This document shows positions 37,032-43,538 of a stretch of DNA of 64,000 bases, in pieces; positions within the stretch are counted from its first letter, which is position 1, and every line of letters begins with the position of its first letter. Both the position numbers and the translations under genes were made by a program. The stretch lies in assembly GCF_001697225.1 (NCBI RefSeq), contig NZ_CP014671.1, positions 372,001 to 436,000 of the forward strand, read 5' to 3'. This DNA is from Immundisolibacter cernigliae. Its GTDB lineage: Bacteria; Pseudomonadota; Gammaproteobacteria; Immundisolibacterales; Immundisolibacteraceae. The notes below the pieces were generated by a model, which ran no database searches, was not told the DNA's origin, and saw only the letters and a list, made by a program, of their open reading frames with translations.

Positions 37032-37103
37032 TCGCGGGCATGGCCCGCTCCTACACACGGACGCAACGGATGATTCCATTGTAGGAGCGCGCCTTGCGGG
37101 CAA
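37032..37103. repeat. REP-like inverted pair, copy b
   Basis: TCGCGGGCATGGCCCGCTCC (37032 onward, ending CTAC at 37054) faces GTAGGAGCGCGCCTTGCGGG (37081-37100) in inverted orientation. The same unit occurs at 39180-39283. It fills the gap between moxR and the DUF58 gene, just after the moxR stop codon, and may act on mRNA stability. Confidence 0.65.
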
Positions 37104-38069: not shown

Positions 38070-38238
38070 CAGCGAACCTCGGAGGATGACAGGATTGCCT
38101 GGATTATCGGCCGCCCGGCGCGCATGTTGAGCACAAAGGCCGGCGCGGCGCCTGGCATGCCCGCCGATCAGCCCGGGCATCCGCGGCCCGGCCGGGAGTT
38201 CAACAGACCTGGCCCTGGACGGGAGCTACGGAAACACC

Positions 38239-38291
38239 GTAGGAGCCCAGCTACGCTGGGCGATCATCGCGCAACACAGTTGCGCTCCTAC
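38239..38291. repeat. REP-like palindromic element, copy c
   Basis: It is bounded by GTAGGAGC (38239-38246) and its reverse complement GCTCCTAC (38284-38291), with CAGCTACGCTGGGCGATC between. It is related to the element at 28323-28366. It lies between moxR and the SDR gene, a 251-bp gap where no gene was found. Confidence 0.65.
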
Positions 38292-38320: not shown

Positions 38321-39103
38321 CTACAGATACGCCGCCATGCCGCCGTCCACGTCCAGCTGCGTGCCGGTGACGTAGCTGGCGGCGTCGGAGGCCAGGAACA
38401 GCGCCACGTTGCCGACCTCCTGCATGCGCCCGACGCGGCCCATGGGCACGCGGTAGAACTCGGCGCTGGACTTCAGGAAGGCCTCGTAGCTGCCCTGCGC
38501 CGGGTCGTGCCACTTCTCCCAGGCCGGAGTTTCGACCAGTCCCAGCCCGATCGCGTTGGCGCGCACACCCTGCGCGGCGTGCTCGCGCGCCAGCAGCTTG
38601 GTGAAGGCGAGGCACCCGGCGCGCACGACGCTGGATGCATAGAACGTCATGTCCGGCTGGCGGGCGAAGATGGCGTTGATGTTGATGATGCTGCCGCCGC
38701 CGCGGGCCAGCATCAGCGGCACCGCGGCGCGCGCGGTGCGGATCATGGCCATCAGCTTGACGTCGAATTCCCTGTGCCACTGGTCGTCGCTGAGGCTGGC
38801 CAGGGTGCCGGATTCGGACGTGGCGGCATTGTTGACCAGCACGTCCACCCCGCCGAAGCGGTTCCGGACCTCCGCCAGCAAGCGGTCGATGTCCTCGGCC
38901 TGACCGACGTCGGCCTGAATGCCGGCGATGCGATCACCGTGGCTGGCGCGCCAGTGCTCGATCTGTGCACTCAGGCCGGCGCCGTCGCGAGCGCAGGTGA
39001 GCACACTGGCGCCGGCTTCCAGAAAGGTCTGCGTGATGCAGTGGCCGATGCCCTGCCGGCCGCCGGTGACGATGGCGACCTTGCCCTTGAGGTTGATGTC
39101 CAT
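38321..39103 (-). CDS. SDR family protein lacking catalytic Ser and Lys
   Basis: The 260-residue protein has a normal Rossmann core: TGGRQGIG (13-20), NNAATSESG (91-99) and the C-terminal VTGTQLDVDGGM. But the active site is altered. At the Ser position the sequence reads ININAIFARQ (140-149) with no Ser, and after Tyr 155 it reads YASSV, so the Lys of YxxxK is Val. Codons are clear, with no frameshift. It is therefore either a non-catalytic SDR or one with an unusual mechanism. It lies beside an aldehyde dehydrogenase on the same strand. Confidence 0.88.
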   Translation of the reverse strand: MDINLKGKVAIVTGGRQGIGHCITQTFLEAGASVLTCARDGAGLSAQIEHWRASHGDRIAGIQADVGQAEDIDRLLAEVRNRFGGVDVLVNNAATSESGTLASLSDDQWHREFDVKLMAMIRTARAAVPLMLARGGGSIININAIFARQPDMTFYASSVVRAGCLAFTKLLAREHAAQGVRANAIGLGLVETPAWEKWHDPAQGSYEAFLKSSAEFYRVPMGRVGRMQEVGNVALFLASDAASYVTGTQLDVDGGMAAYL

Positions 39104-39179: not shown

Positions 39180-39283
39180 GTAGGAGCGGCCCATGGCCGC
39201 GACCGCAAGGCCCGCCTGCTGCACCCTATCGAACGTACCCGCCGACCTGCGCCGCAACGGTCGCGGGCATGGCCCGCTCCTAC
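39180..39283. repeat. REP-like inverted pair, copy d
   Basis: GTAGGAGCGGCCCATGGCCG (39180-39199) faces TCGCGGGCATGGCCCGCTCC (39261-39280, ending TAC at 39283). The second arm is identical for 23 bases to the one at 37032-37054. The TAG stop codon of the aldehyde dehydrogenase (39280-39282) lies in the outer end of this arm. Confidence 0.7.
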
Positions 39284-40743
39284 TTCAGGCCGGTCCAGAC
39301 GGCTTTGAGCTCGGTGTACATGGCGATGCCCTCCTCGCCGTTCTCGCGGCCCAGGCCGGACATCTTGTAACCGCCGAAGGGCACCGCGGCGTCGAGCACG
39401 CCGTAGGCGTTGATGTACACAGTGCCGGCCTTGATCGCCCGCGCCACGCGGTGCGCCTTGCCGACGTTCTGCGTCCACAGGCCCGCCGCCAGGCCAAATT
39501 GCGTGTCGTTGGCCAGGCTGAGCACCTCGGCTTCGTCCTCGAAGGGAATCACCGACAGCACCGGGCCGAAGATTTCCTCCTGCGCCACGCGCATGGAGTT
39601 GCTGACGCCGGCCAGCACCGTCGGCTGGTAGAAAAAGCCGCGCCCGCCGACATCCGCCGGACCGCCGCCCGCCACCACCGTGGCGCCCTCGGACACGCCC
39701 AGCTTCACGTACTCGTCCACGCGCTTCCAGTGCTGTTCGGACACCAGTGCGCCGACGCGCGTGTCCTCGGCGAACGGGTCGCCCACCTTCATGCGCGCGG
39801 CGGCCTGTGAAGCCGCCTCGAGCGCCTGCTCGTACAGCGGCTTTTCGACGAACAGCCGCGAGCCGGCGATGCACACCTCGCCCTGGTTGTAGAAGATGGC
39901 CGCGCCGATGGCGCGCATGGCCGATTTGAGGTCCGCGTCGCCAAAGATGATGTGCGGCGACTTGCCGCCCAGCTCCAGGCTGATGCGCTTCAGCGTGCCG
40001 GCGGCCTGGCGCATGATGTGCTGACCGGTTCGGGTGCTGCCGGTGAAGGCGATCTTGTCGACGTCCGGGTGCGTGATCAGCGCCTCGCCGGCCTCGGTGC
40101 CGATGCCGGACACGATGTTCACCACACCGGGCGGAAAGCCGGCCTGGTTGATCAGGTTGCCCAGGTACAGCGCCGTCAGGGGCGTCTGCTCGGCGGGTTT
40201 GAGCACCACCGTGTTGCCGGCGGCCAGCGCCGGGGCCAGCTTCATCACCGCCATGAACAGCGGGAAGTTCCACGGCACGATCTGGCCGATGACGCCGATC
40301 GGCTCGCGCAGGGTATAGGTGTGAAACGGCCCGCGCACCGGCACCGTCTCGCCGCGCAGCTTGGTCGGCCAGCCGGCGTAGTAGCGCAGGGCCTGCACCG
40401 ACAGCGGCAGGTCGATCTTGCGCGCGTCGCCGAAGGGCTTGCCGGTGTCGTAGGTCTCCAGCGCCGCCAGGGCGTCGGTGTTCTGTTCGATCAGGTCGGC
40501 GAAGCGGTGCAGCAGGCGCTCGCGGTCCGATGCGGCCATGCCGGCCCAGGAATCGGCCTCGAAGGCCGCCCGGGCAGCCTTGACGGCGCGGTCGATGTCC
40601 GCCGCCGAGCCCTTGGCGACCTCGCCCAGCGACTGCCCGGTGGCCGGGTTGATGTTGTCGAAGCGGGCGCCGCCGGCGGCGTCCTGGTACTCGCCGTTGA
40701 TGTAGAGGCGGGTCGGGGCGGTGAGTTTCTCGAATGGGATCAT
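39280..40743 (-). CDS. Aldehyde dehydrogenase (NAD-dependent family)
   Basis: The 487-residue enzyme has PWNFPLFMAVMKLAPALAAG, GSTRTGQ, LELGGKSP (general base Glu) and NQGEVCIAGSR (catalytic Cys), and ends near PFGGYKMSGLGRENG. It resembles betaine-aldehyde or phenylacetaldehyde-type dehydrogenases, but the substrate cannot be told. The stop codon is inside a REP-like element. An upstream ATG-side ribosome site GGAGGAAACC supports the start at 40743. Confidence 0.93.
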   Translation of the reverse strand: MIPFEKLTAPTRLYINGEYQDAAGGARFDNINPATGQSLGEVAKGSAADIDRAVKAARAAFEADSWAGMAASDRERLLHRFADLIEQNTDALAALETYDTGKPFGDARKIDLPLSVQALRYYAGWPTKLRGETVPVRGPFHTYTLREPIGVIGQIVPWNFPLFMAVMKLAPALAAGNTVVLKPAEQTPLTALYLGNLINQAGFPPGVVNIVSGIGTEAGEALITHPDVDKIAFTGSTRTGQHIMRQAAGTLKRISLELGGKSPHIIFGDADLKSAMRAIGAAIFYNQGEVCIAGSRLFVEKPLYEQALEAASQAAARMKVGDPFAEDTRVGALVSEQHWKRVDEYVKLGVSEGATVVAGGGPADVGGRGFFYQPTVLAGVSNSMRVAQEEIFGPVLSVIPFEDEAEVLSLANDTQFGLAAGLWTQNVGKAHRVARAIKAGTVYINAYGVLDAAVPFGGYKMSGLGRENGEEGIAMYTELKAVWTGLK

Positions 40744-40793: not shown

Positions 40794-43538
40794 TCAGTGG
40801 GCTTCGTCCCAGTTCAGGCCAACGCCGGTTTCCACTTCCAGCGGCACGGTCAGCGGATTGTCGGCGGTCATCAGGGCCGTGACCTGTGCCCGCACCGCCT
40901 CGGCGCGCTCGGCCGGCAGCTCGAACACCAGTTCGTCGTGCACCTGCATGATCATGCGCGCCGGCTGGCCATTGTCGTGCAGCCAGCGGTCGATGCGAAT
41001 CATGGCCAGCTTGATCAGGTCGGCGGCGGTGCCCTGCATGGGCGCGTTGATGGCGGTGCGCTCGGCGTACTGGCGGCGCTGGTTGTTGCCGGCGCGGATG
41101 TCCGGCAGGTACAGGCGCCGGCCGTAGACGGTCTGCACGTAGCCGCGCTCGCGCGCCGCGGCGCGGGTGGCGTCCATGTAGGCGCGCACGCCGGGGTAGC
41201 GTTCGAAGTACTGGTCCACGTAGCGCTGCGCGGCGCCCCGATCGATGCCCAGCTGCTGCGCCAGGCCGAAGGCCGACATGCCGTAGATGAGGCCGAAGTT
41301 GATGGCCTTGGCGGCGCGCCGCTGCTCGCCGCTGACCGCGTCCGGCGCCAGGCCGAAGATTTCCCCCGCCGTGGCGCGGTGCACGTCCAGGCCCCGTGCG
41401 AACGCCTCGACCAGACCTTCATCGCCCGACAGGTGGGCCATGATGCGCAGCTCGATCTGCGAGTAGTCGGCCGACAGCAGCACGCAGCCGGGCGGCGCGA
41501 TGAAGGCCTGGCGGATGCGCCGGCCCTCGGCGGTACGCACCGGGATGTTCTGCAGGTTCGGATCCGACGACGACAGCCGGCCGGTCGAGGCCACCGCCTG
41601 GTGATAGGAGGTATGCACGCGGCCGGTGGCCGGGTTGACCTGTTGCGGCAGCTTGTCGGTGTAGGTAGAGCGCAGCTTGGACAGGCCGCGGTGCTCCAGG
41701 ATCACCCGCGGCAGCGGGTAGTGCAGGGCGAGCTCCTGCAGCACGTCCTCGGCGGTGGACGGCTGCTTGGTCGGGGTGCGACCCAGCACCGGCAGTTTCT
41801 GTTCCTCGTACAGCACCTGCTGGATCTGCAGCGGCGAACCCAGGTTGAACGGGTGCCCGGCCAGCTCGTGCGCCTCGGCTTCCAGGCGCTGCATGGCGGC
41901 GGCCAGCTCGCCGCTTTGCGTGCGCAGCAGGGCCGCATCGATCAGCACGCCGTGGCGCTCGATGCGCGAGAGCACCGGCAGCAGCGGCATTTCGATCTGC
42001 TCGAACACGCGCCGCAGCTCGGGCGCCGCCTCGATCTGCGGCCAGAAGTGCCGGTGCAGGCGCAGCGTGACGTCGGCGTCCTCGGCCGCGTAGCGGGTGG
42101 CGGTTTCAATGTCCACCTGATTGAAAGTGAGCTGGTTCTTGCCGCTGCCGGCCACGTCCTTGAAGGTGATGGTGGCGTGGCCAAGATGTCTGGCGGACAG
42201 GGTGTCCATGTCGTGTCGGCTGGCGGTGCTGTCCAGCACGTAGGATTCGAGCATGGTGTCGAAGGCCGGACCGGCCGGCGTGATGCCGTAGCGGGCCAGC
42301 ACCGTGCAGTCGAACTTGAAACCCTGGCCGATCTTGCGCGGCGTATCGGCTTCCAGCAGCGGCTTCAACCGCGCCAGCACGGCGTCCCGGGCAAGCTGCT
42401 CCGGCGCGCCCGGATAGTCGTGGCCGACCGGCACGTAGGCCGCCTCGCCGGGCGCGACTGCAAACGACAGGCCGACGATCTGGGCCGTGATGGCGTCCAG
42501 GCGGTCGGTCTCCAGATCGAAGCTGAATTCGTCGGCCGCCGCCAGGCGTTCGCACCAGCGCTCGAGCGCAGCCTCGTCGAGCACGGTTTCGTAGGCCTCG
42601 CGGTCGATCACCTGCGCGGCGGCAACGGCGGGCGCCTGCAGCACGGCCGTATCCGCGGCGGCAAGCGCCTGCCCACCCACCGATCCGCCGTCCAGTTCCT
42701 TCAGCCACGACCTGAACTCCAGCTCGGTGAACAGCCGGCGCAGCGTGTCCACGTCCGGCGCGCCGCGGTTCAGGTTGTCCGGGTCGATGTCCAGCGGCAC
42801 GTCGCAGCGCACCGTGGCCAGGTCCAGGTACAGCGGCAACTGCTCCAGCGTGGCACGCAGGTTCTCGCCCACCTTGCCGCCGATGTCGCCGGCATGGGCG
42901 ATCACGCCATCCAGCGAGCCGTAGTCGGTGAGCCATTTGGCGGCGGTCTTGGGGCCGACCTTGGGCACGCCGGGGATGTTGTCCACCGTGTCGCCGGTCA
43001 GGGCCAGGAAATCGGCGATCAGTTCCGGCGGCACGCCGAATTTCTCCCGCACGCCGGCCACGTCGAGCACCGTGTTGCTCATGGTGTTGACCAGCCGCAC
43101 CCGGCCATCCACCAGCTGCGCCAGGTCCTTGTCGGCGGTCGAGATCAGCACCTGTTCGCCGCGGCTGGCCGCGCGCCGGGCCAGGGTGCCGATCACGTCG
43201 TCCGCCTCCACGCCGTCGATCACCAGCAGCGGCAGACCGAGCGCCCGCACCAGTTCCAGCGTCGGGCCGATCTGCACCGCCAGCTCCGGCGGCATCGGCG
43301 GGCGGTTGGCCTTGTAGTCGGCAAACGCGTCGTGCCGGAAGGTCGGCCCCTTGGCGTCGAACACCACCGCGATGTGGGCGTCCGGATAGTCGCGCTCCAG
43401 CCGGCGCAGCATGTTGACCACGCCGTAGGTGACACCGGTCGGCTGGCCCTGGGAGTTGGTCAGCGGCGGCAGCGCATGGAAGGCGCGAAACAGGTAGGAC
43501 GAGCCGTCCACCAGGACGACGAGCGGTGATTCGGACAT
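40794..43538 (-). CDS. polA: DNA polymerase I
   Basis: The 914-residue protein has the 5'-nuclease domain (VDGSSYLFRAFHALPPL onward), a 3'-5' exonuclease domain with an intact DxE site (FDLETDRLD), and polymerase motifs A (SADYSQIELRIMAHLSGD), B (RRAAKAINFGLIYGMS) and C (MQVHDELVFE). It serves repair and Okazaki fragment maturation. Start ATG 43538 is the family start; an upstream frame is shadow. The next genes on the other strand, DUF2782 and thrB, are common polA neighbours. Confidence 0.97.
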   Translation of the reverse strand: MSESPLVVLVDGSSYLFRAFHALPPLTNSQGQPTGVTYGVVNMLRRLERDYPDAHIAVVFDAKGPTFRHDAFADYKANRPPMPPELAVQIGPTLELVRALGLPLLVIDGVEADDVIGTLARRAASRGEQVLISTADKDLAQLVDGRVRLVNTMSNTVLDVAGVREKFGVPPELIADFLALTGDTVDNIPGVPKVGPKTAAKWLTDYGSLDGVIAHAGDIGGKVGENLRATLEQLPLYLDLATVRCDVPLDIDPDNLNRGAPDVDTLRRLFTELEFRSWLKELDGGSVGGQALAAADTAVLQAPAVAAAQVIDREAYETVLDEAALERWCERLAAADEFSFDLETDRLDAITAQIVGLSFAVAPGEAAYVPVGHDYPGAPEQLARDAVLARLKPLLEADTPRKIGQGFKFDCTVLARYGITPAGPAFDTMLESYVLDSTASRHDMDTLSARHLGHATITFKDVAGSGKNQLTFNQVDIETATRYAAEDADVTLRLHRHFWPQIEAAPELRRVFEQIEMPLLPVLSRIERHGVLIDAALLRTQSGELAAAMQRLEAEAHELAGHPFNLGSPLQIQQVLYEEQKLPVLGRTPTKQPSTAEDVLQELALHYPLPRVILEHRGLSKLRSTYTDKLPQQVNPATGRVHTSYHQAVASTGRLSSSDPNLQNIPVRTAEGRRIRQAFIAPPGCVLLSADYSQIELRIMAHLSGDEGLVEAFARGLDVHRATAGEIFGLAPDAVSGEQRRAAKAINFGLIYGMSAFGLAQQLGIDRGAAQRYVDQYFERYPGVRAYMDATRAAARERGYVQTVYGRRLYLPDIRAGNNQRRQYAERTAINAPMQGTAADLIKLAMIRIDRWLHDNGQPARMIMQVHDELVFELPAERAEAVRAQVTALMTADNPLTVPLEVETGVGLNWDEAH

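Follow-up and report, generated by a model that had tools for sequence, protein, structure and literature searches.

An SDR-fold protein of Immundisolibacter cernigliae in which the classical catalytic tetrad is exchanged for a conserved Lys-Arg set

A 64,000-nucleotide stretch of the Immundisolibacter cernigliae chromosome (NZ_CP014671.1, positions 372,001 to 436,000; hereafter the window) encodes an SDR which, as judged from sequence, is an intact dehydrogenase-fold protein of a little-studied family, its catalytic set swapped for a conserved Lys-Arg set. Its reaction is probably not the usual one and likely belongs to aromatic-compound degradation. Routine annotation goes by the fold and calls SDRs alcohol dehydrogenases or ketoreductases; the conserved group described here has had its entire catalytic set exchanged. 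The most useful results are that the exchange is tied, throughout the group, to loss of the proline of the PG motif, and that the position of the catalytic Ser is free to vary.

The ORF is uninterrupted, fills exactly the interval given in Table 1 and encodes 260 amino acids that match Pfam adh_short_C2 (2.5e-54) and adh_short (4.2e-45). A sequence-only reading of the same DNA had called the gene intact and its Rossmann motif kept, and the glycine motif TGGRQGIG (TGxxxGxG type) is indeed unbroken. The catalytic Ser had been reported as replaced, which the alignments bear out, Ala144 occupying its position. However, Tyr155 had been taken for the retained catalytic Tyr and the stretch YASSV for a YxxxK motif with Lys changed to Val. 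The register was established by alignment with the best solved structures (two sets of five chains each) and with 61 other SDRs, in which Tyr157, Lys161 and Pro187 form nearly invariant columns. On this basis the tetrad Asn-Ser-Tyr-Lys corresponds to Lys116-Ala144-Ser157-Arg161, so that all four positions differ from those of a classical SDR. Ser157, two residues after Tyr155, stands where the catalytic Tyr would be, and Arg161, not Val159, where the Lys would be. The Asn described as kept is present in the NNAG motif, which reads NNAA (N91-N92 retained, Gly changed to Ala); the Asn of the tetrad, by contrast, is replaced by Lys116, on the long helix 106-133. The PG motif reads LG (L187-G188). 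By these alignments the departure from the classical SDRs is real, but its register had been set two residues off, and Lys116 and Leu187 had been overlooked.

Table 1. Positions of the SDR gene, its active-site codons and the adjoining genes in the window.
Feature	Position	Strand	Basis
SDR ORF, 260 aa, atypical Lys-x-Ser/Thr-Arg type	38321..39103	-	ORF, Pfam, alignments
Cofactor motif TGGRQGIG, residues 13-20	39044..39067	-	sequence, order orthologues
Lys116, tetrad Asn position	38756..38758	-	alignments
Ala144, catalytic Ser position	38672..38674	-	alignments
Tyr155, start residue of helix 155-178, 2 before catalytic Tyr position	38639..38641	-	alignments, model
Ser157, catalytic Tyr position; Thr in G007 orthologue	38633..38635	-	alignments
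Arg161, catalytic Lys position	38621..38623	-	alignments
Leu187, position of PG-motif Pro in most SDRs	38543..38545	-	alignments
Aldehyde dehydrogenase (ALDH), 487 aa, upstream of SDR, same strand, 176 bp gap	39280..40743	-	Aldedh 4.8e-182
polA, upstream of ALDH/SDR pair	40794..43526 (BLAST query range; longest ORF reaches 43670)	-	ORF list, orthologue loci

Eight genomes of the order were compared (G000-G007), and six have the SDR gene; no orthologue was found in G005 (60% complete) or G006 (72% complete). Identity to the window SDR is 97% in G001, 85% in G002, 62% in G003 and G004 and 61% in G007. Lys116, Ala144, Tyr155, Ser158 and Arg161 are invariant in all six members, as are T13, G14, G15, R16, Q17, G18 and G20 of the cofactor motif; at residue 157 five members have Ser and one has Thr. 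The values of dN/dS against the G001 and G002 orthologues were 0.018/0.158 and 0.094/0.379 by NG86 and 0.012/0.511 and 0.077/1.90 by YN00; both closest-orthologue comparisons show purifying selection. The question raised alongside the sequence-only reading, whether close homologues share the changes, is thus answered positively. Since the replacement residues are invariant down to 61% identity and selection is purifying, private decay or a sequencing artefact is barely conceivable; the structural model has a mean pLDDT of 96.3, with a Rossmann fold along its full length, and nothing was found in favour of decay.

A search profile was built from the SDRs of the six order members. Within the class it matched 5 of 369 genomes at 1e-60, namely four genomes of the order and one other (G366), whose SDR reads Lys-Ile-Thr-Arg at the tetrad positions. 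Across the phylum, 15 of 398 genomes matched at 1e-50, in 17 places: eight Lys-Ser-Thr-Arg, four Lys-Asn-Thr-Arg and three His-Ser-Tyr-Lys proteins, the window gene and its Lys-Gly-Gly-Asn paralogue. Another class of the phylum (that of G640) gave matches in 30 of 289 genomes at 1e-55, in 32 places; the 14 places that were read (12 and 2) are all of the Lys-x-Ser/Thr-Arg type, the 12 being Lys-x-Thr-Arg, and an SDR of the group may occur in as many as roughly a tenth of the sampled genomes of that class. The Lys, Ser/Thr and Arg of the window SDR are common to 25 examined sequences outside the order, all of which lack Tyr155; the form with both Ala144 and Tyr155 was seen, among the sequences examined, in the order alone. 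Membership of the window SDR in this atypical group is well supported by the alignments. A conserved alternative residue set beside an intact cofactor motif also supports the earlier suggestion that the protein might use another mechanism. The paralogue, in the same genome as the window (L036:6112-6918), has tetrad residues near those of the Microcystis protein AerF (Lys-Gly-Ser-Asn), and divergent from it lies a 208-aa ORF (L036:5378-6004) with carboxymuconolactone decarboxylase-like and Rieske domains. A further SDR, at L008 in G006, has Val-Ala-Ser-Arg at these positions and an intact PG motif.

In an alignment of 127 rows, gathered by likeness to the window SDR and not at random, Pro187 is absent from all 19 Lys-x-Ser/Thr-Arg rows and from 2 of the 108 others. 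Twelve later rows also lack it, giving 31 of 31 for the group; therefore the changes arrive as a package, and the linked loss of Pro187 provides a simple sequence test for Lys-x-Ser/Thr-Arg proteins. Position 144 is occupied by S, A, N or I across these 31 rows, a variability which argues against Ser-Tyr-Lys carbonyl chemistry. Arg39, a usual mark of NADP, occurs in all 31 rows and is also common in ordinary SDRs, several of them aligned alongside.

A first, quick tree, built with the tetrad columns included and its careful search unfinished, set all 21 rows having Lys at 116 together with Arg or Asn at 161 apart from the remaining rows by a branch of support 70. A second tree, from a careful search, was built without the tetrad columns and column 187, from 54 rows, made up of the 21 and a choice of 33 among the other 106. 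Its subgroups are firm (order rows 100/99, Lys-Ser-Thr-Arg 100/100, Lys-Asn/Ile-Thr-Arg 99/98), and they group with six other rows (97/88) and not as a single clade; four changes are needed, and a single change was found in 0% of bootstrap trees. A single origin of the SDRs with Lys116 and Arg or Asn at 161 is thus not recovered once the trait columns are removed. The best NCBIfam family, NF005468 (PRK07062), was rejected as a family name, with a score of 218.8 bits against a curated cut-off of 266 and matches in none of 14 control genomes. A scan of genome contigs, which may omit near relatives, gave no closer kin among the best 80 matches listed (top identity 39%), and literature searches found nothing on a Lys-x-Ser/Thr-Arg SDR subfamily.

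The gene neighbours put the reaction within reach of testing in an isolate that degrades pollutants. In all five orthologue loci an ALDH gene lies no more than 2.5 kb from the SDR, and polA stands upstream of the ALDH and SDR genes in G001 and G007 also. The order in G003 and G004 is ALDH, enoyl-CoA hydratase (ECH), SDR. G007 has a longer run on one strand, polA-ECH-ALDH-ECH-MaoC-thiolase-SDR-IOR alpha-IOR beta, with IOR beta cut by the contig end; the IOR is an IOR-family 2-oxoacid:ferredoxin oxidoreductase. In I. cernigliae the two ECH genes, MaoC, IOR alpha and IOR beta are found far from the SDR, at about 13.6-19.6 kb of the chromosome, their products sharing 50-67% identity with the G007 counterparts; the G007 thiolase has no I. 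cernigliae match at the strict cut-off of 1e-60. These genes adjoin two catechol 2,3-dioxygenase-like genes, both under the TIGR03211 cut-off. The whole stretch (L140:2290-10636; about 11.3-19.6 kb of the genome) resembles the EdcB/EdcC route and lies in an organism that degrades PAHs. Novosphingobium breaks oestrogen down with the extradiol dioxygenase EdcB and then the IOR-family EdcC; mutants support both, and the subsequent steps are proposed to be beta-oxidation-like (PMC7793797). A review's table of the pathway places a ‘Reductase’ after EdcC (PMC12507874).

Elsewhere in the group the surroundings vary. Flanks of 1.5 kb at 41 other loci yielded no ALDH. Wider stretches around eight Lys-Ser-Thr-Arg SDRs (one being the source of the query proteins and one cut at 4.4 kb) hold an ALDH in six, an aspartate dehydrogenase in seven, and an alpha/beta hydrolase and a VOC protein in all eight, in at least four of them just distantly similar. 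Unlike the window-type loci, these show a different, catabolic-looking cluster. The kept cluster of VOC, ALDH, aspartate dehydrogenase and alpha/beta hydrolase was seen at L142 and L149-L153, with a Rieske oxygenase, a TPP enzyme and IclR added at L150. Wide stretches were read at five Lys-Asn-Thr-Arg and Lys-Ile-Thr-Arg loci, and none of the tested neighbours occurs in any of them. Among the 12 later loci, for which short flanks were read, an ECH-like neighbour occurs in L164 alone and an alpha/beta hydrolase in L166 alone; by eye, the flanking genes of 11 of the 12 have no shared theme.

Short REP-like, hairpin-forming repeats with GTAGGAGCG(G/C) ends lie in the intergenic gaps at 37045-37090, 38220-38291 and 39180-39283. 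The window holds 10 matches with at most one mismatch, where 4.4 are expected; three of the shuffles reach 10. The segment 38205-38305 folds as DNA with a z of -4.45.

Structural comparison of the model with VIA-align gave Z scores of 36.0-37.9 across 241-259 residues in the 50 rows shown, among them sorbose reductase 3ai1 (37.9), BbsCD 7pcs (36.9) and Pseudomonas aeruginosa Q9HYA2 (3lf2, 36.5). Many ordinary SDRs score equally, and the comparison therefore demonstrates the fold and not the function. The top Foldseek match was AerF (6jhb, with NADPH and 4-hydroxyphenylpyruvic acid; E 3.9e-27), Q9HYA2 (3lf1) being ranked 27; by their entry titles, NADPH is bound in 3lf2 and 6jhb.

The leading, though tentative, reading is by analogy: the window SDR would be an NADP(H)-dependent conjugate (ene) reductase working downstream of aromatic ring cleavage, and not a carbonyl reductase or alcohol dehydrogenase. 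We infer the preference for NADPH, the type of reaction, the substrate and the roles of single residues as follows. NADPH would be seated in the ordinary Rossmann site, with Arg161 assuming the contact that the usual Lys makes with the cofactor (nicotinamide) ribose. Lys116, together with Ser157 or Tyr155, would hold or polarise the oxygen (carbonyl or enolate) of a substrate with alpha,beta-unsaturation; hydride would pass to the beta carbon of the conjugated C=C, and Lys116, Tyr155 or water would supply the proton. The candidate substrate is an unsaturated 2-oxo acid or CoA ester produced by extradiol ring cleavage, and the co-workers would be the adjacent ALDH and, in relatives, the ECHs, MaoC, thiolase and IOR-family oxidoreductase. 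The ene-reductase proposal draws on the SDR enoyl reductases, which have lost Ser and carry Tyr upstream, on the Lys116 of AerF, on the BacG reductase and on the ‘Reductase’ after EdcC. Several observations count against it. An ideal helix would turn residues 155 and 161 some 120 degrees away from each other, a less than ideal spacing (Y-x5-R) for sharing one face, and Tyr155 might therefore fall short of the active site. The analogy with AerF is weakened by the Asn at 161 and the retained PG proline of that protein. The absence of Tyr155 from the 25 rows outside the order, the unmatched G007 thiolase and the Asn/Ile loci devoid of the tested neighbours also tell against ene reduction. It is a doubtful extension that the whole Pseudomonadota SDR group, with its Lys-(Ser/Thr)-Arg site, no PG proline and a dispensable Ser, carries out conjugate reduction, the branch in the order of Immundisolibacter having added a displaced Tyr (Y-x5-R) as a further route for the tyrosine hydroxyl in an SDR ene-reductase, on extradiol ring-cleavage products.

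Beta-oxidation neighbours would suit a 3-hydroxyacyl-CoA dehydrogenase equally, and in G007 the ECHs, MaoC and thiolase leave just this step vacant. The window SDR would then be a 3-hydroxyacyl-CoA or alcohol dehydrogenase or a ketoreductase working in the ordinary direction, Lys116 (with Ser157 or Tyr155) replacing Tyr as acid/base; in Q9HYA2 the Lys is presumably used in this way, and carbonyl reductases such as 3ai1 are among the best structural matches. This seems somewhat unlikely, as the catalytic positions hold no Tyr, Ser or Lys, the PG motif is lost and Arg39 suggests NADP(H), which is unusual in catabolic oxidation. BbsCD, also among the structural matches, is a heterotetramer reportedly containing inactive pseudoenzyme subunits, and a comparable dependence of the window SDR on an active SDR partner can be imagined. 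It is improbable, however, given the conservation of the cofactor motif and of the replacement residues, and given that no SDR gene adjoins the window SDR or its orthologues in the loci read, the nearest being about 2.5 kb off on the opposite strand in G004. The alteration of four of four tetrad positions could be that of a non-redox enzyme or, as the sequence-only reading had proposed, of a ligand-binding or regulatory protein on the SDR fold. No positive evidence for a regulatory role emerged: no regulatory partner was seen, the conserved neighbours are catabolic enzymes and the dinucleotide motif is intact, which leaves this explanation with little likelihood.

Among the closest known systems is Q9HYA2 (34% identity), whose structures 3lf1 and 3lf2 were released in 2010 with titles that say ‘Atypical Cataly...’. 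Like the window SDR it has Lys at 116, Arg at 161, Arg39 and no PG proline, and at 157 its Thr corresponds to Ser in all but one of the six order members; unlike the window SDR, Q9HYA2 keeps Ser at 144, where all six order members have Ala, and has Val in place of Tyr155. Its catalytic tetrad, which we take to be Lys-Ser-Thr-Arg, may really be a Lys-Thr-Arg triad, as the variable Ser position argues. AerF (6jh7, 6jhb) shares Lys at 116 and has Ser at the Tyr position and Gly at the Ser position, but has Asn where Arg161 stands and retains the PG proline; BacG is presumably its relative, and literature searches turned up no account of how AerF works. The BacG reductase converts epoxy-3E-H2HPP to epoxy-4S-H4HPP (PMC9147277). 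The enoyl reductases FabI and FabV have lost Ser (Phe or Tyr stands there) and have Tyr shifted upstream, as Y-x6-K or Y-x8-K (PMC9260719); in contrast to the window SDR, where Y155-x5-R161 is found and not the Y-x6-K of FabI, they keep the Lys and act on acyl-ACP substrates. The divergent BcSDR (5u4s; LxxxK) likewise shows a natural, lineage-conserved loss of the catalytic Tyr, but retains the motif Lys and Ser131 (PMC11614110). The NADPH-sorbose reductase 3ai1 is the top sequence match (36% identity), yet has His at 116 and an intact Ser-Tyr-Lys. Thus, the atypical SDR group is known, being exemplified by the Q9HYA2 structures, whilst Ala144 and the invariant, displaced Tyr155 are new.
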